A stretch of 64,000 nucleotides of DNA from Bradyrhizobium diazoefficiens. Lineage in GTDB: Bacteria > Pseudomonadota > Alphaproteobacteria > Rhizobiales > Xanthobacteraceae. How positions within the stretch are numbered: the stretch's first letter is position 1; every line of letters begins with the position of its first letter. Below, in pieces: positions 7,417 through 22,841 of the stretch. Under the pieces are notes generated by a model. That model did not search any database. It saw only the letters and a list, made by a program, of their open reading frames with translations, and was not told the DNA's origin. The stretch lies in contig NZ_JAENXS010000002.1 in assembly GCF_016612535.1 (NCBI RefSeq), positions 806,001 through 870,000 on the forward strand, in the 5' to 3' direction. The position numbers were made by a program, and so were the translations under genes.

Positions 7417-8103
7417 ATGCCGGCACCGCTCCAGATCGGACTTCTGGTGTTCCCGCGCGTCACCCAGCTCGACTTCACCGGCCCTCTGCAGGTGTTCGCC
7501 TCCGTCCCCGGCGCAAAACTGCATCTGATCTGGAAACGGATCGAGCCCGTGCCGAGCGATTCCGTCCTCACGCTGACACCAACCACGACATTTGCCGATT
7601 GCCCGCAGCTCGACGTGATCTGCGTGCCCGGCGGCGGCGGCACCAACGATCTGCTCAACGACGAGGAGGTGCTGAACTTTCTGCGCACGCAGGCCGAGGG
7701 CGCCAAATACGTCACCTCGGTCTGCACGGGATCCCTGGCGCTCGGTGCGGCCGGCCTGCTGAAGGGCTACCGCGCCGCCACCCATTGGAGCGCGATGGAG
7801 ATGCTCGGCCAGTTCGGTGCGACGCCGACCAAGACCCGCGTCTGCGTCGACCGCAACCGCATCACCGGCGGCGGCGTCACGGCAGGAATCGATTTCGCGC
7901 TGACGCTGGTGTCGATCATGATCGACCGCACCACGGCGGAGACGATCCAGCTACAGCTGGAATACAATCCGGCCCCGCCGTTCAATTCCGGCTCGCCCGA
8001 CACGGCGCCTGTGGAAGTGCTCGCCCTGCTCAAGGAGCGCGGCGCGCAAAGACAGGCCGACCGGCTCGAAGCGGTCAAGCGGGCGGCCGCGCGGATGATG
8101 TAG
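7417..8103 (+). CDS. inhA: DJ-1/PfpI protein, likely isonitrile (cyclohexyl-isocyanide) hydratase
   Basis: 228 residues, the length of Pseudomonas InhA, which hydrates isonitriles to N-substituted formamides in the cytoplasm. The ATG at 7417 is preceded by GGAG at a good distance; the upstream in-frame extension is rejected. Visible blocks: GLLVFPRVTQLDFTGPLQV, DVICVPGGGGTNDL, SVCTGSLALGAAGLL (nucleophile Cys), ATHWSAMEML, GGGVTAGIDFALTLV and LEYNPAPPFNSGSPDTAP, all typical of the isonitrile hydratase subgroup. It is paired with a divergent GlxA-type regulator. The exact substrate is inferred. Confidence 0.82.
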   Translation: MPAPLQIGLLVFPRVTQLDFTGPLQVFASVPGAKLHLIWKRIEPVPSDSVLTLTPTTTFADCPQLDVICVPGGGGTNDLLNDEEVLNFLRTQAEGAKYVTSVCTGSLALGAAGLLKGYRAATHWSAMEMLGQFGATPTKTRVCVDRNRITGGGVTAGIDFALTLVSIMIDRTTAETIQLQLEYNPAPPFNSGSPDTAPVEVLALLKERGAQRQADRLEAVKRAAARMM

Positions 8104-13973: not shown

Positions 13974-14731
13974 GTGGGGTGTCCGACAAAATCGGCTTCA
14001 GCTTGGCGCGGATTCGGCGCCGCCACCACCACCTCGGCGGGCATGCCTGCCCTCACCTTCCGTACCCCTACGTGAGTCCCGCCGAGGCAACCCCGCGGCT
14101 CAAAAATATACCTGCCCTGTGAACAGCGGGAGGAAGCCTCCGTAGGGTCACGGCAGACAAATTTTTTCGGTTGGGAATCCCTGAGGACTCACCGATACTT
14201 GGCTCCACAACAGGTGCGGGCTTGCCCCCTGTTATCCCCCGCAATCCCCCATATTTAGTATTTGATTCAGGAACTCGCACTAGTTCTTGACGGGCGCAAC
14301 GGAGAGTCCTAGCTTTCGAACCGTTCGGCGCGAGTGTGTTTGCGTCCCGCCGGCACTCCCCCAAAGGGTTCGCAAAACTGCACTCCGCCAAGCCAGACGA
14401 AGGCAGCGGGATGAGGGCTTGTCTGCCCTCGCGAGGCGGATCTTTCGGGCGCCAGAACGGGCCGGAAACAGGCTCGGATGGCATTGGTTGAAGTGATGTT
14501 GTGGGGCGTTTGAACGCATGTCGGGCTCATCCCCTTGGGGCGGATGTGTCTGGACATGCCGGCGGATGGAAGGTGCACGCACCTGACACCCCCGGGAGAA
14601 CCAGAGCCGGAACCACCGGCTGAACTGCGAAGCCTTTGGGCCGATGAGGCCTTCGAGGACTCGCGAACTGAAATCGCGACCCGGGCGCCTTGCGGAGGCG
14701 GTCCGGTCAAAGACAAGGACGGGGCAAGACC
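13974..14731 (+). other. Long intergenic region and nrdJ leader
   Basis: 758 bases without a supported gene. The last 160 bases before nrdJ form a run of short perfect hairpins (listed separately). Upstream parts contain GC-rich blocks but no recognisable cobalamin riboswitch: no B12-box motif followed by the usual conserved core was found by eye. Open frames across it have no ribosome sites or coding character. Confidence 0.4.
14571..14700 (+). promoter_or_regulatory. Serial hairpins in nrdJ leader
   Basis: Five stem-loops follow one another: AGGTG/CACCT (14571-14584), GCCGG/CCGGC (14606-14620), CGAAGCC/GGCCTTCG with a bulge (14628-14655), TCGCGA/TCGCGA (14661-14679) and CGCCT/AGGCG with loop TGCGG (14686-14700). 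The last ends 31 bases before the nrdJ ATG. Such an array in an mRNA leader suggests a structured regulatory RNA. Confidence 0.5.
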
Positions 14732-17700
14732 ATGCGGATTGAGCGGCGCCACACCACCCAGGGACAGTCACCTTACGCCGGGATCGATTTCCGGCAGACC
14801 ACGTCGGAGATCAGGAATCCCGACGGCTCGGTCGTGTTTAAAATGGACGGCGTCGAGGTCCCGGCCGAATGGTCGCAGGTCGCCTCCGACGTGCTCGCCC
14901 AGAAGTATTTCCGCAAAGCCGGCGTCGCCGCGCGCCTGAAGAAGGTCGAGGAAGAGTCCGTCCCCTCCTTCCTGTGGCGCTCCGTGCCCGACACCGAGGC
15001 CCTCGCCACCCTCCCCGAGAAAGAGCGCTTCGTCAGCGAGCTCAGCGCCAAGCAGGTGTTCGACCGCCTCGCCGGCTGCTGGACCTATTGGGGCTGGAAA
15101 GGCAAATATTTCTCCTCCGACGAGGACGCCCAGACCTTCTATGACGAGATCCGCTACATGCTCGCCATGCAGATGGTCGCGCCGAACTCGCCGCAATGGT
15201 TCAACACCGGCCTGCACTGGGCCTATGGCATCGACGGCCCCGGCCAGGGCCATTATTACGTCGACCCCTTCACGGCCAAGCTGACCAAATCCAAATCGGC
15301 CTATGAGCACCCGCAGCCGCACGCCTGCTTCATCCAGGGCGTCGGTGACGACCTCGTCAACGAGGGCGGCATCATGGACCTCTGGGTCCGCGAAGCCCGC
15401 CTGTTCAAATACGGCTCCGGCACCGGCTCCAACTTCTCGCGCCTGCGCGGCGAAGGCGAAAAACTCTCCGGCGGCGGCCGCTCGTCCGGCCTGATGAGCT
15501 TCCTCAAGATCGGCGACCGCGCCGCGGGCGCGATCAAGAGTGGCGGCACCACGCGCCGCGCCGCCAAGATGGTCGTGGTCGACGCCGACCATCCCGATAT
15601 CGAGACCTATATCGACTGGAAGGTGAAGGAGGAGCAGAAGGTCGCCGCCCTGGTCACCGGATCCAAGATCAACCAGAAGCATCTGAAAGCGGTGCTGAAG
15701 GCCTGCGTCAATTGCGAAGGCTCGGGCGACGATTGCTTCGACCCCGAGAAGAACCCGGCGCTGCGCCGCGAGATCAAGCTCGCGCGCCGCAGCCTCGTGC
15801 CCGACAATTACATCAAGCGCGTCATCCAGTTCGCCAAGCAAGGCTACAAGGACATCCAGTTCGACGTCTACGACACCGACTGGGATTCGGAAGCCTATCT
15901 CACGGTATCAGGCCAGAACTCCAACAACTCGGTCTCGCTGAGGGACGACTTCCTCCGCGCCGTCGAAACCGATGGCGACTGGAATCTCGTCGGACGCACC
16001 ACAAAGAAGATCACCAAGACGCTGAAGGCGCGCGACCTCTGGGAAAAAATCGGTTACGCCGCCTGGGCGTCGGCCGACCCCGGCCTGCACTTCAACACCA
16101 CCATGAACGACTGGCACACCTGCAAGGCGTCCGGCGACATCCGCGCCTCCAATCCGTGCTCGGAATACATGTTCCTGGACGACACGGCGTGCAATCTGGC
16201 CTCCGCGAACCTGCTGACGTTCTACAACACCGCGACCAAGCAGTTCGACGTGAAGGGCTATGAGCACCTCTGCCAGCTCTGGACCATCGTGCTGGAAATT
16301 TCGGTCATGATGGCGCAATTCCCGTCGCGCGCGATCGCCGAGCTCTCCTACGAGTTCCGCACGCTTGGTCTCGGCTATGCCAATATCGGCGGCCTCTTGA
16401 TGACCATGGGTCTGTCCTACGACAGCAAGGAAGGCCGTGCGATCGCCGGCGCGCTGACCGCGATCATGACCGGCATTACCTACAAGACCTCGGCCGAGAT
16501 GGCGGCCGAGCTCGGCACCTTCCCCGGCTACAAGAAGAACGCCGCGCACATGCTGCGCGTGATCCGCAATCACCGCCGCGCCGCCCACGGCCAGTCCAAC
16601 GGCTATGAGGCGCTCAGCGTCAACCCGGTGCCGCTCGACCTCGTCTCCTGCCCGCTGGCCGACCTGGTCAGCCACGCGCAGGCGGCCTGGGACGCGGCGC
16701 TCGAGCTCGGCGAGAAGCACGGCTATCGCAACGCCCAGACCACGGTGATCGCGCCGACCGGCACGATCGGCCTCGTCATGGATTGCGACACCACCGGCAT
16801 CGAACCGGATTTCGCGCTGGTGAAGTTCAAGAAGCTCGCCGGCGGCGGCTACTTCAAGATCATCAACCGCGCGGTCCCCGCGGCGCTGCGCGCGCTCGGC
16901 TATCGCGAGAGTGAGATCGCGGAGATCGAGGCCTACGCCGTCGGCCACGGCTCGCTGTCGAACGCGCCGGGCATCAACGCCTCGACGCTGAAGGCCAAGG
17001 GCTTTACGGATGAGGCCATCGCCAAGGTCGAGAAGGCGCTGCCGACCGCCTTCGACATCAAGTTCGCCTTCAACAAATGGACCTTTGGCGAAGACTTCAT
17101 CCGCGACCAGCTCGGCATCGGCACTGATGCGATCGCGGCCCCCGGCTTCGACCTGCTCCAGGCCGTCGGCTTCACCAAGCGCGAGATCGAGGCGGCCAAC
17201 GTCCACATCTGCGGCGCGATGACGGTGGAAGGTGCTCCGCACCTCAAGGCCGAGCACTATTCGGTGTTCGACTGCGCCAACCCCTGCGGCAAGATCGGCA
17301 AGCGTTATCTGTCGGTCGAGAGCCACATCCGCATGATGGCAGCCGCCCAGCCCTTCATCTCGGGCGCGATCTCCAAGACCATCAACATGCCGAACGACGC
17401 CACGGTGGAGGACTGCAAGTCCGCCTACATGCTGTCGTGGAAGCTCGCTCTGAAAGCCAACGCGCTCTACCGCGACGGCTCCAAGCTCAGCCAGCCGCTC
17501 AACTCGCAGCTCATCAGCGACGACGAGGACGAGGACGATGCGGTCGAGGCGCTCTACGAGAAGCCGATGGCCGCGCGTACCGCTCAGGTCTCGGAAAAGA
17601 TCGTCGAGAAGCTGGTCGAGCGCATCATCGTGATGCGCGAGCGCGAGAAGATGCCGGATCGCCGCAAGGGCTACACCCAGAAGGCGGTCGTCGGCGGCCA

Positions 17701-18499
17701 CAAGGTGTACTTGCGCACCGGCGAATATGACGACGGCCGCATCGGCGAGATCTTCATCGACATGCACAAGGAAGGCGCCGCGCTCCGCTCCTTCATCAAC
17801 AACTTCGCCATCGCGGTCTCGCTGGGTCTCCAATACGGCGTGCCGCTCGAAGAATATGTCGACGCCTTCACCTTCACCCGCTTCGAGCCGGCGGGCCCGG
17901 TGCAGGGCAACGACAGCATCAAGTATGCGACCTCGATCCTCGACTACGTCTTCCGCGAGCTCGCGGTGAGCTACATGTCGCGCTTCGACCTCGCCCATGT
18001 CGATCCGACCGAGTCGAACTTCGACGCGCTCGGCAAGGGCGTCGAGGAAGGCAAGGAGCCGGAGGAGCCGAACCAGGCGACCAGGCTGGTCTCGCGCGGC
18101 CTCACCCGCTCCCGCACCGACAATCTGTTCGTGATGCGCAGCGGCTCCGCCGCGGTCGCCCAGGGCAATGACAGCGCGCCCGCCGGCGGCAGCAAGGTCA
18201 CCTCGCTCGCCTCCCACGGCGCCACCGCCCGCGGTGCCGGCGATGCCCTCGAAGGCGCGGTCGCGCTGAAGCAGGAAGTCAGCCACGACCTCTCGCCGAC
18301 GGAGAAGTTAGAGGCCCTCCAGTGGAGCAAGTCCGGCAGCGCCGCCCAGGCGGTGCCCAGCAAGGCCGAGCGCCGCGCGGAAGCGAAAGCCAAAGGCTAC
18401 GAAGGCGAGATGTGCGGCGAGTGCGGCAACTTCACGCTGGTGCGGAATGGGACGTGTATGAAGTGCGATACGTGCGGCAGCACGACGGGGTGTTCGTGA
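14732..18499 (+). CDS. nrdJ: Vitamin B12-dependent ribonucleotide reductase (class II)
   Basis: 1255 residues from the ATG at 14732. It reduces ribonucleotides to deoxyribonucleotides with adenosylcobalamin as radical source, so it works with or without oxygen. Visible: N-terminal [41 protein letters not shown], active-site block [41 protein letters not shown] and a C-terminal Cys-rich tail (CGECGNF then [13 protein letters not shown]) that acts as redox shuttle or zinc site in this long subclass. The leader upstream is unusually long and structured. Confidence 0.97.
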
Positions 18500-18561: not shown

Positions 18562-18595
18562 GAGTCGCAGACGAGAAATTCACTTCGATCAAGCC

Positions 18596-19693
18596 TTAAG
18601 ACGGACTGTCAACCATCTCCTTAAGATGTAACAGGGCGTTCCGAAGCGCGTTATCTTCGTCTAAAGGCGACTCCGAATTGTATTCAGAGATTATCCGATC
18701 TATCTGGCGACGTGTGAGGACCAACTCTTTACGCTCCGCCAGATTTATATGAGATCTGATCTGCCCCCACTTGTCGGAACGATGGCTTTCGCCAGCGCTG
18801 CCTAATTCTTCCGCCAACTTGCTCCAGGCAGCCTCAGCATCCTTCGTTGAAATTCTCTTTTGACGATCGAATTCGAGCATAGAATTCAATATCTCTTCCG
18901 ACCGCCCGCGCAAACTATGATGCACGCGAGCCCGCAGTTCTGAAGCGGCCGATTGATCTAAAATACGCCCAGCAACAACCTTATTAAGAGCCTCTTTCTT
19001 TAGCTTACCAGTGGCCTCATCAATTGCTTTCGTTCTCACTTGATCACTTATTATTTTTCGCTCGCGAATCTCGCTTGAAAACACGAACGGATAATCGCCG
19101 GTTCTTAACGCAAAAAGCGCCGCACCAAGAGCCCACACATCGGTTTGGTAATCACATTGAGCACCGCTCGAAATCGAAAAGAGCTCGGGCGCGCGCGTAA
19201 ATACAGTCCCGCGCACGTCCCCGCCATCGCTCGTAACTGATCCCAGATCAAAAATCTTAGCTCTTAGCTGATGATCCAAACCACAATTGTCGAGCTTGAG
19301 ATCTCTGTGCACTAGCTTGCTATCATGCAAACAAACCAGTCCTCTAGCAAGGTCGCGCGCTATACGTACGAACTGCACAATGTCGTTCAGGGGCGCCAGC
19401 CCCTCTAGCGGACGATCGAGCAACTCTTCAATGATAAAAAACCGCCCATCCTGCCCTTGCTGGAAGCCATAGAACTTAGCCAGATAGCCGGCGTATCGAT
19501 GCTTAGACATCGTGCGGATTAAACTGGTGACGTCCTTGACTACGATGTCAGGCTTCTCATCATCATGAAAAAAAAGGAGAGCTACATCTGCTAGACTGTA
19601 AGGACTCGTAGCGCGATAAGCACTCTTCCAATTTCCACCCCCAAGGTACTCTCGGACTTTATAACCCAATCCGGGATTTGGTAGCTCACCCAT
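18596..19693 (-). CDS. Hanks-type Ser/Thr protein kinase, WNK-like lysine placement
   Basis: 365 residues from the ATG at 19693, preceded by GGGAGG five bases away; upstream TTG/ATG starts (19732, 19723) lack such a site. Kinase core about 10-300: glycine loop LGGGNWKSAYRA (17-28), catalytic loop HRDLKLDN (129-136), metal site FDLGS (148-152, DLG for DFG) and APE (168-170). The beta-3 VAIK position reads VALL, with no lysine, while the third glycine of the loop is Lys 23, exactly as in eukaryotic WNK kinases. No membrane helix or extra sensor domain is seen. It follows the HD gene by 35 bases on the same strand and shares its AT-rich composition. Confidence 0.85.
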   Translation of the reverse strand: MGELPNPGLGYKVREYLGGGNWKSAYRATSPYSLADVALLFFHDDEKPDIVVKDVTSLIRTMSKHRYAGYLAKFYGFQQGQDGRFFIIEELLDRPLEGLAPLNDIVQFVRIARDLARGLVCLHDSKLVHRDLKLDNCGLDHQLRAKIFDLGSVTSDGGDVRGTVFTRAPELFSISSGAQCDYQTDVWALGAALFALRTGDYPFVFSSEIRERKIISDQVRTKAIDEATGKLKKEALNKVVAGRILDQSAASELRARVHHSLRGRSEEILNSMLEFDRQKRISTKDAEAAWSKLAEELGSAGESHRSDKWGQIRSHINLAERKELVLTRRQIDRIISEYNSESPLDEDNALRNALLHLKEMVDSPS

Positions 19694-19728
19694 CACAACC
19701 TCCCGATTCGACACGTTAGACATTGTAC

Positions 19729-21156
19729 TCAAATTCGATACTTCTTATCGACATACTCGCGAGACTCGGCCACAAAGTCTCTCGGAACATAAACTCGGTT
19801 CACCGAAAACGTCTCGAGCAAATTTTCGATATTAAAGCCAACACACATTGGATCAATCCGCTCCAAGGGAACAGCATTTCCTTGAAACGAAAATAGCAGG
19901 TCCGAAGGTGGCGCAGAGCTGAATGTTACTTGGTCGAAAGCGACTAGATATGTCGCTGCATCCTCAGGCACTTGATTGCTCTGGAACCGACCTCTTACGT
20001 ACTCCCTCAAATCTTCAGTAACAGACAGCAGGTCTGCCGGTAGAAACTCCTCCATTAGTACTCCCTGCCGTTCGGTCTCGGAAAACGGCTCGTCAGACAT
20101 TCTATATCGTTGAGAAAGAAGCTTATTCGACTTCGCTGAATCCAATACTGCCTTTGGAAATTGCCGTCGCACGAACATGTCGGCCAGCAATCGAAGTACC
20201 GCGTCCGAGTGATCGGAAGCAAAGCCTCGGATCATATAGGCGATCTCGATATCAGTTGTCTGAATGAAGTCATCCAATGATGGCTTTTGACCGGAAGCAA
20301 TACTATGCAGACATTTCGGCGCCAATCGGATGCTATCCGAATGCCCAGGAATGTCTTGCATGCGTGCAAAAATTCCTTTCAGCAGGAGCTGTGCTCCTCG
20401 GATCGTCGGGTGAAAGTAAACCTGCCGGTGCAGGTATCGACGGGCTGCGAGAAATTGTCTCAGAGCGTCCAGCCCGCGCGGCCCATCAAGGAGCAAGATC
20501 GGAAGCCCGAAATCGTTGGTCTCAACTGTAATGGCGTGAAAAAGCCACTTCAGATCGTATTTGCCGTATTCAACACCAGCCATTCGACTGTCGCGCAAGA
20601 TGTAGTCGCAGCGGTCTACGTCAAATGTGCTCGAAATCAATTCAACGAGCGCCTTGTTTGCATGCCGCTTCCTAAGCAGATTCTTCACGGCATCGATATC
20701 CGCAGCATCATTAATAGCTGAGGCAACCGGCGTATCTGCGGAAAGAATAGCCACGGTACAATCTTCGTGGTTCCGAATGCCATCCGGTAAAAGAATAGTC
20801 TCTAGTACATGTGAGAACGCGGAGTGACCAAGGTCGTGGCACAATGCAGCGATTCCAAACTCAGCCATCGCTTCATCGTCGAATCTCAAGCCTGGTGTCT
20901 GAAGATCGAGCGGCGCGGCCCTTTGCTGCAACAACCGAAACACCTGACTTGCGGTAGCGAACACACCTAAAGAGTGCGCAAATCTCGAATGTTCGGCGGT
21001 AGGGAAGACATATGACGATAGGCCCATCTGCCGAATGTTTCGTAGCCGCTGAAATTCTCGCGTATCGACGACGCGTCGGACGCGATCCGGCATCTCAATG
21101 AGACGATTACCTTCAATATTATCTCGAAAAACAGAATTATGAATTGATGCCAACAT
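19729..21156 (-). CDS. HD-domain phosphohydrolase (dNTPase/YdhJ-like)
   Basis: 475 residues from the ATG at 21156 (GGAG eight bases upstream); the frame runs to 21462 without homologous sequence. Metal site of the SAMHD1/dGTPase-like HD superfamily: His 61 in FAHSLGVF, His 107-Asp 108 in LCHDLGHSAFSH, and Asp in FDVDRCDYILRDS (about 181-184). The N-terminal block RVVDTREFQRLRNIRQMG is typical of this family. Likely a deoxynucleotide or nucleotide phosphohydrolase, but the C-terminal 200 residues are not recognised. First gene of a two-gene unit with the kinase; composition is visibly AT-richer than the flanks, suggesting horizontal gain. Confidence 0.85.
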   Translation of the reverse strand: MLASIHNSVFRDNIEGNRLIEMPDRVRRVVDTREFQRLRNIRQMGLSSYVFPTAEHSRFAHSLGVFATASQVFRLLQQRAAPLDLQTPGLRFDDEAMAEFGIAALCHDLGHSAFSHVLETILLPDGIRNHEDCTVAILSADTPVASAINDAADIDAVKNLLRKRHANKALVELISSTFDVDRCDYILRDSRMAGVEYGKYDLKWLFHAITVETNDFGLPILLLDGPRGLDALRQFLAARRYLHRQVYFHPTIRGAQLLLKGIFARMQDIPGHSDSIRLAPKCLHSIASGQKPSLDDFIQTTDIEIAYMIRGFASDHSDAVLRLLADMFVRRQFPKAVLDSAKSNKLLSQRYRMSDEPFSETERQGVLMEEFLPADLLSVTEDLREYVRGRFQSNQVPEDAATYLVAFDQVTFSSAPPSDLLFSFQGNAVPLERIDPMCVGFNIENLLETFSVNRVYVPRDFVAESREYVDKKYRI

Positions 21157-21554
21157 TGAGCACGCTCCAGACCAGAATCGAGGAGCATGTCTAGCGCCGC
21201 CTCGCAGCGCTATCAGAGTTTGCCAGCAGCCCCCCGCTTTACAAATACGCCGCCCTTTCCAGGAGCGATGTCGCCACGATGAGACACCACAACCAGAACG
21301 TTTGCAAACGGGAAACATGGTTGCGTTATAGAACAAACAAAGAACGCAGTCTATCGTCTCGATTCCAGCAGTTTTCAGCCTTTTACCCGCTCGCCACGCC
21401 ATAATGCCCCTGTTTTGACCTACTGGTGGCCGCAGCGAAGCGATATCCATCAGCCCTCCCACAAACCCATGCCAAGAAAAACCCAGCGCCTACTCCCTCG
21501 CCTTCGCAGCATCCGGCGGGGCGCCCGATGGGTACGTTCGCGCGGGCACCGCGG
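21157..21554. other. Gene-free junction of the island
   Basis: 398 bases. The left half keeps the AT-richer composition of the HD gene, the right half returns to GC-rich host sequence, so the island edge probably lies near 21420. No tRNA, integrase or direct repeat marking an attachment site was found by eye. It should contain the promoter of the HD-kinase pair. Confidence 0.4.
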
Positions 21555-22158: not shown

Positions 22159-22310
22159 CGGTGCACTAAGTTCGTTCGCTATCGCATGTGACCCTGATTA
22201 AGTGCACACCGTAATTCGCCAGAATTGCCTTTGCGGTCGAGCCCTTCCCTCCTAAACTCCCAATCCCACCGGCATGGGTTCCGACGGGCCCGGTAGAAGC
22301 GGAGTCAAAT

Positions 22311-22826
22311 ATGCCCAAACCGGAAAGCTTCCCGATCGAGAAGATCTTCGTTCCCACCAAGCAGAAGAAGGCCATCAGGCCCGAGACCGTCGGCGAGATC
22401 GCGGAAAGTATGCTGGACATCGGACAACAGGCCCCCATTTCCGTTCGGCTCGACGGAGACCGCCTCGTTCTGGTCGAGGGACTGCATCGGCTCGAAGCCT
22501 GCAAGGCGCTCGGCGAGACGAACATCATCGGTGTCCTGGTCCCGGCGGAGCTTGCTCAACACAAGCCGCAGCTCGCCGAACGACCCGAAGTCGAGGCCGA
22601 GCGCATCAAGATGGCGCGATTGAAACAGCTGCGGCTCGAGAGGGAAGCCGCAGAGGCATCGACTGCTGCCTTGAAGAGCGTCAACGCAACGGAAGCGCCG
22701 CGCACCCGTTCGACGAACGGCGTCCGCGACAATCCGAAGGCAGTGCCGGGCCGGACCGCAGGATCGACACGGAAAACATTGTCGGACTGGATCACGCAGC
22801 AGAAGGGCAGCGGCGGCCGCTATTGA
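22311..22826 (+). CDS. Orphan ParB/sulfiredoxin-fold nuclease-like domain protein
   Basis: 171 residues. The N-terminal half (about 5-90) is a ParB N-terminal domain: KIFVPTKQKKAIRPETVGEI, DIGQQAPISVRLDGDRLVLV and the GLHRLEACKALGE motif, equivalent to the CTP-binding GEHRxxA box of ParB. The C-terminal half is charged, helical then disordered, without the ParB helix-turn-helix. It is not beside parA or a replication origin, so a chromosome partition role is unlikely; similar orphan proteins occur on mobile DNA. Not otherwise assignable. Confidence 0.78.
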   Translation: MPKPESFPIEKIFVPTKQKKAIRPETVGEIAESMLDIGQQAPISVRLDGDRLVLVEGLHRLEACKALGETNIIGVLVPAELAQHKPQLAERPEVEAERIKMARLKQLRLEREAAEASTAALKSVNATEAPRTRSTNGVRDNPKAVPGRTAGSTRKTLSDWITQQKGSGGRY

Positions 22827-22841
22827 TGCGCGATTGCGGCT

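Follow-up and report, generated by a model that had tools for sequence, protein, structure and literature searches.

The kinase gene and its motifs

The window analysed here is a stretch of 64,000 nucleotides of Bradyrhizobium diazoefficiens DNA (contig NZ_JAENXS010000002.1, positions 806,001 to 870,000) from a genome of 8.0 Mb, and it encodes a Hanks-type Ser/Thr kinase of 365 residues with a relocated lysine. The open reading frame (ORF) of the kinase lies on the minus strand (18596..19693), begins with an ATG at 19693, and ends with a stop codon that finishes at 18596. The plus strand of the same stretch is interrupted by many stop codons. An in-frame TTG at 19732 is an alternative start, which would extend the protein by 13 residues. 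An earlier reading of the letters of this DNA, referred to below as the original prediction, had given the coordinates correctly and had not named the strand. The protein contains a Pfam Pkinase domain (E-value 1.6e-20), and its AlphaFold2 model, with a predicted local distance difference test score (pLDDT) of 91.8, has a complete kinase fold.

The glycine loop has the sequence LGGGNWKSAYRA (from L17: GGGNWK23-SAYRA), in which Lys23 (19625..19627, minus strand, as for all the kinase features below) stands in place of the third loop glycine. The beta-3 strand reads ADVALLFF, and the site of the canonical VAIK motif is formed by V37-A-L-L40, with Leu40 (19574..19576) at the position where a lysine is expected. 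Asp54 (19532..19534) provides the acid at the position of the alpha-C glutamate and is located in a helix that spans residues 48–61 of the model. The gatekeeper position is occupied by Glu89 (19427..19429). The catalytic loop HRDLKLDN (His129–Asn136, 19286..19309), the DLG motif (Asp149–Gly151, 19241..19249), and the APE motif are all retained. The loop lysine, the VALL sequence without a beta-3 lysine, and the three intact motifs had been described in the original prediction and can be read in the translation.

WNK kinases lack the beta-3 lysine, yet they are counted as kinases. They are defined by the move of this lysine into the glycine loop; the loop of WNK1 has the sequence GRGSFKTVY, and a cysteine occupies the position of the beta-3 lysine. 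The WNK1 sequence used for the comparison is identical to PDB entry 6cn9 over 290/290 residues. The alignment pairs Lys23 of the bacterial kinase with Lys233 of WNK1, Leu40 with Cys250, Asp54 with Glu268, and Asp131 with Asp349. In the DLG region, Asp149 is paired with Asp368, Leu150 with Leu369, and Ser152 with Leu371. The earlier claim that the two sequences align without gaps was borne out for the segment from the glycine loop to the beta-3 strand.

Conservation of the lysine swap in a bacterial family

A phmmer search against 5.8 billion proteins returned 165 proteins with E-values up to 1e-3, the query included, of which 120 were listed. Among these, every relative that spans the glycine loop has a lysine at the position of Lys23 (108/108), and none has a lysine at the beta-3 site (0/108). 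Where the respective positions are present, the alpha-C residue is always acidic (aspartate in 56 and glutamate in 54 relatives, 110/110), the gatekeeper is glutamate in 112/112, and the aspartate of HRD, the catalytic asparagine, and the aspartate of DFG are retained in 118/118, 119/119, and 120/120 relatives, respectively.

An alignment of 95 family members contains the loop lysine in 95/95 and the beta-3 lysine in 0/95 sequences. The beta-3 site is occupied by leucine (65 members), alanine (22), valine (5), or isoleucine (3), and never by cysteine. The alpha-C acid is aspartate in 49 and glutamate in 46 members. Residues His129, Asp131, Lys133, Asn136, and Asp149 are each invariant (95/95), and the glycine at the third position of DxG is present in 93/95. 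All 95 sequences combine the loop lysine, a missing beta-3 lysine, the alpha-C acid, the gatekeeper glutamate, and the catalytic residues HRD-Asp, Asn, and DFG-Asp. Of 8000 candidates scored in a profile-based search, 320 had E-values up to 1e-3. Twelve of the 16 newly listed members keep the loop and have its lysine (12/12), and the other four start downstream of the loop.

As controls, 45 further bacterial kinases were drawn from genomes that share the class, order, or phylum; each was a top match in its search, so the set leans towards ordinary kinases. Their residue at the loop position is glycine (33), alanine (7), serine (4), or glutamine (1), and never lysine (0/45), whereas the beta-3 lysine is present in all of them (45/45). 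PknB and other bacterial Hanks-type kinases, as sampled here, differ from the family in both respects. The alignment of Lys23 with WNK1 Lys233 agrees with the original prediction. The presence of the loop lysine in 108/108 and of the beta-3 lysine in 0/108 relatives, against 0/45 and 45/45 in the controls, indicates that the swap is more than chance. The gatekeeper column, the register of which is an alignment reading anchored on an aromatic residue three positions before and the hinge acid after, contains glutamate in 95/95 family members, whereas the most common residues in the 45 controls are methionine (37) and threonine (4), and glutamate occurs once.

Lysines that could replace the missing one from nearby positions were considered and rejected. 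Positions 36–40 and 42 contain no lysine in any member, and position 41 contains one in 1/95. No column from 33 to 42 has a lysine in more than 5/95 sequences, and Lys47 is a lysine in 8/95. The original prediction had named Lys49 and Lys53 as residues that might fill the VAIK site; residue 49 is in fact an aspartate, and position 53 is a lysine in only 41/95 members. The alignments lend good support to the view that the WNK-type swap is a property of the whole family, which otherwise keeps its catalytic core intact, and not a quirk of one sequence. A bacterial family of WNK type was not found in a literature search of titles and abstracts, with most subscription papers outside its reach. Reference 72 of PMC12599244, an atlas of bacterial kinases, may include the family under some name.

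The HD-domain partner

The gene directly upstream of the kinase (19729..21156, minus strand) encodes a SAMHD1-like HD-domain protein of 475 residues, a probable deoxynucleoside triphosphate (dNTP) triphosphohydrolase. Its stop codon overlaps the possible TTG start of the kinase by four bases. The only Pfam domain of the protein is the HD domain. In comparisons with PDB sequences, the best match is 2o6i (E-value 6e-40), and SAMHD1 matches with an E-value of about 1e-20. The AlphaFold2 model of the HD protein (pLDDT 93.8) is also most similar to 2o6i, which is followed by 3irh and 4lrl, all from an Enterococcus HD protein, and then by a Bacteroides phosphohydrolase and SAMHD1. The template modelling (TM) scores to the Enterococcus entries are 0.72–0.83, and these entries include structures with dGTP and dATP or dTTP. 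The Enterococcus protein (EF1143) hydrolyses dNTPs. Across 76 relatives, His107 and Asp108 of the H...HD...D motif are invariant, and the conservation of His61 and Asp181 is at least 90%. The bacterial partner thus resembles the Enterococcus protein and SAMHD1 in sequence, fold, and preservation of the HD motif, but differs from them in being encoded together with a kinase and in having the HD domain as its sole Pfam domain. The strand, the family, the glutamate gatekeeper, and the HD partner gene are additions to the original prediction.

A related locus is present in Bradyrhizobium sp. JYMT SZCCT0180, the kinase of which is 86% identical. There the HD frame ends at 7965 and the kinase frame starts at 7962, which gives the same four-base overlap. 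The kinase–HD gene pair is therefore read directly in two genomes. Elsewhere, pairing was scored when the longest contigs of a kinase cluster and of an HD protein cluster had exactly equal lengths and both genes could fit. The sample included 134 kinases and 119 HD proteins, the latter from the best 120 of 693 matches, and P0001, P0108, and P0172 were left out of the count. The scoring identified 44 kinase–HD pairs on equal-length contigs (43 kinases, 43 HD proteins, and 42 lengths), whereas lengths jittered with a standard deviation of 5% gave a mean of 1.3 and a maximum of 7 pairs in 2000 trials. Twenty-nine of the pairs are on contigs shorter than 7 kb, 15 of them on contigs shorter than 4 kb. 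All 44 fall within the first 86 listed HD proteins, and the other 33 give none. The pairs include those of Mesorhizobium amorphae (P0046 and P0158) and Bradyrhizobium WBOS4 (P0004 and P0122).

Two additional cases of equal length, P0146/P0023 and P0157/P0118, were set aside: their contigs are too short for both full genes, and they may represent coincidences, or partial or overlapping genes. The kinases P0004 and P0005 (Bradyrhizobium WBOS4 and others) are annotated with 279 and 260 residues and without an N-lobe; in these strains, the start may have been misannotated or the gene may be disrupted. The locus tags in WBOS4 are 21105 for the HD gene and 21115 for the kinase.

The pairing of a probable HD dNTPase with a putative dedicated regulator resembles the Clover anti-phage system (CloA/CloB), for which the accessible part of PMC12265719 indicates that such an enzyme can be restrained by its partner. 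The regulator in Clover is, however, a nucleotidyltransferase that makes p3diT, whereas here it would be a kinase.

Proposed mechanism and comparison with other atypical kinases

The conservation of the motifs and the predicted models make it reasonably probable, though far from assured, that the protein is a catalytically active Ser/Thr kinase, holds ATP by Lys23, and works with the SAMHD1-like HD enzyme. Lys23, moved from the beta-3 strand to the glycine loop and beta-2 strand, would reach the phosphates of ATP and would pair with the alpha-C acid Asp54, and perhaps also with the gatekeeper Glu89. The kinase would be catalytically active, and the HD partner would hydrolyse dNTPs. The most likely route of cooperation is that the kinase would phosphorylate the HD partner and thereby alter its dNTP-destroying activity.

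Several points weigh against this mechanism. The conserved motifs would also be compatible with an ATP-binding regulator. The equal-length contigs link the kinase and HD genes indirectly, and among the 101 kinases whose contigs could accommodate an HD gene, 59 were unmatched and 42 matched within the HD set drawn from the best 120 of 693 matches. A set of this size will have overlooked some pairs, but family members without an HD partner may exist. The kinase is rare, and was identified in 1/146 genomes of the genus (E-values up to 1e-40), 1/398 genomes of the phylum, and 2/397 genomes of the order, its own genome being counted each time; the second genome of the order is that of JYMT. Finally, phosphorylation of human SAMHD1 at T592 lowers its antiviral activity and not its dNTPase function, according to the accessible part of PMC8319325, so that hydrolysis by the partner could remain unaltered when it is phosphorylated.

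The pairing with an HD enzyme would also suit an ATP-binding pseudokinase, in which Lys23 binds ATP without phosphate transfer and the protein, as an allosteric subunit, senses nucleotides for the HD enzyme. The absence of the beta-3 lysine from all 95 members points in the same direction, since this is one of the three losses that define a pseudokinase in PMC12599244, the accessible part of which is the source of the comparisons in this section. Nevertheless, the aspartate of HRD, the catalytic asparagine, the lysine of the catalytic loop, and the aspartate of DFG are retained in 95/95 sequences, a strictness unexpected in a pseudokinase, and we consider this explanation unlikely.

The bacterial pseudokinases ActPs1–3, DLHK, and GLW share the absence of the beta-3 lysine with the new family. 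However, PMC12599244 places ActPs1–3 and GLW among the families in which all three motifs have diverged, whereas the family described here keeps the aspartates of HRD and DFG. The GLW pseudokinases have GLW in place of HRD, in contrast to the invariant His129 and Asp131 of the new family. ActPs2 has lost the aspartate of HRD and most of DFG, unlike the new family. DLHK has kept HRD, but its DFG metal site is degraded, whereas Asp149 is present in 95/95 of our sequences. The protein O-mannose kinase POMK is similar to the new family in that a lysine of the glycine loop takes over in the absence of the beta-3 lysine (PMC12599244). POMK has no alpha-C glutamate, and its lysine pairs with a glutamate of the DLD motif, whereas the bacterial family has the alpha-C acid in 95/95 members. 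Many of the bacterial DYD kinases also have no beta-3 lysine and are thought to bind ATP; they differ in having a beta-3 arginine, no alpha-C glutamate, and the DYD motif, in place of the leucine, alanine, valine, or isoleucine, the alpha-C acid, and the DxG motif of the new family. In the accessible text of PMC12599244, WNK appears only as a eukaryotic comparison.

The same text describes SelO, a kinase fold that performs AMP transfer, which provides a precedent for a fold turned to another ATP-dependent reaction. The odd ATP site of the family, with its invariant glutamate gatekeeper and no beta-3 lysine, could be read in this way; the motifs of ordinary Ser/Thr kinase phosphotransfer are kept, though, and such a change of chemistry appears very improbable. 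An active kinase remains the favoured reading of the conserved core.

Relationship to WNK kinases

The bacterial kinase and WNK1 share the lysine at the position of the third loop glycine, the absence of the beta-3 lysine, the alpha-C acid, the DLG motif, and the gap-free register between the loop and the beta-3 strand. They differ in the residue at the beta-3 site, which is cysteine in WNK1 and leucine, alanine, valine, or isoleucine in the bacterial family, and in the gatekeeper, which is threonine in WNK1 and glutamate in the family. In addition, the segment after the hinge is shorter in the bacterial kinases. Residues L369 and L371 of WNK are tied to the chloride site, according to the accessible part of PMC13397483. 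The family has leucine at the position of L369 in 87/95 members, but the position of L371 is occupied mostly by serine (72/95) and by leucine in 11/95. Chloride sensing is therefore not predicted for the family.

The shared loop lysine, missing beta-3 lysine, DLG motif, and gap-free register could go back to a WNK kinase acquired long ago from a eukaryote, as opposed to convergence. In agreement with a transfer, the family profile assigns 73.6 bits to WNK1 in the PDB, where it is row 37 among the best 60 rows. When the family profile was scored against individual kinases, BRAF reached 84.4 bits, STK24 74.6, the bacterial kinases L056, L061, and L060 73.6, 72.7, and 71.3, respectively, and WNK1 71.3. 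However, when positions 23 and 40 were removed, WNK1 was seventh with 68.3 bits, behind four bacterial kinases as well as BRAF and STK24.

Phylogenetic trees were of the 'quick' kind, have long branches, include one WNK among five eukaryotic rows, and were calculated with the two trait columns left out. Within these limits, the bacterial family is monophyletic (support 99–100) and groups with the five eukaryotic kinases, apart from the bacterial kinases sampled (support 84, 88, and 96), which is in line with a eukaryotic source. A clade of the family with WNK1, imposed as a constraint, was not rejected, with approximately unbiased test p-values (p-AU) of 0.469, 0.665, and 0.361 across the quick trees; in the run with p-AU of 0.665, the constrained tree scored higher than the quick free one by 6.5 log units. 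In contrast, the free trees pair WNK1 with BRAF (support 97, 93, and 96). Moreover, other eukaryotic kinases are equal to WNK1 as sisters of the family: p-AU is 0.366 for BRAF and 0.493 for CDK2, and STK24 is already the sister, with a support of 71. The difference in the gatekeeper residue is a further point against a transfer from a WNK kinase, which we regard as improbable. The trees are compatible with either origin of the shared lysine swap, and convergence appears likelier than kinship with WNKs. The absence of WNK1 from the best 50 Foldseek and 50 VIA rows for the kinase model has no bearing on kinship.

We tentatively propose, as a possibility short of an even chance, that the family represents an independent bacterial form of WNK-type catalysis, in which active kinases with a glutamate gatekeeper are wired to SAMHD1-like dNTPases in a two-gene nucleotide switch, possibly with a role in stress or defence against phages. 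If this is true, the WNK solution extends beyond eukaryotes, and there is a second natural case in which to ask what is gained by the relocated lysine. Surveys based on motifs could misclassify such kinases as pseudokinases. With the kinase and the SAMHD1-like enzyme, bacteria offer a model in which the control of a probable dNTP hydrolase by a kinase can be tested.

Genomic surroundings and distribution

The kinase gene is located tail to tail with the gene of a B12-dependent ribonucleotide reductase, nrdJ (14690-18499, plus strand). The gene for the dNTP-making enzyme is thus a neighbour of the HD gene, the product of which is a probable destroyer of dNTPs. The reductase is present in 16/16 genomes of the genus that were searched, and the kinase in 1/146. 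All six other nrdJ stretches examined from the genus (6/6; 8.3–8.6 kb each) lack matches of at least 150 bases to the kinase–HD region (18562-21456), but each of them matches the end of nrdJ and also at least one flanking piece farther out. This arrangement indicates that the gene pair is accessory at this site and has been gained or lost.

The short contigs that carry most of the listed relatives suggest that these sequences come from metagenomes. No match to the kinase was found among plasmids. Among viral contigs, 3 and 21 stretches fit a pattern, and none of them encodes a relative of the kinase. A phage origin was considered on account of eight phage records that match the kinase with 23–32% identity over 34–53% of the query, and these were taken to be generic kinases. 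Among the matches listed from a defence library, the mad6 and PD-T4-6 profiles match the kinase. They were rejected as a defence identity and treated as generic, because one profile of each matches kinases in 70/150 and 114/150 genomes, respectively.

An open frame of 792 codons (15908-18286, minus strand) is antisense to the reductase gene and is probably a by-product of codon bias. Farther along the window, the ORF at 22311-22826 (plus strand) has no Pfam match; it lies within a segment (22222-22827) that has a stretch of 88–95% identity near the reductase in four of the six other stretches from the genus. The segment is followed by a gene for a GapR-like DNA-binding protein (PF10073; 22950-23396, minus strand).
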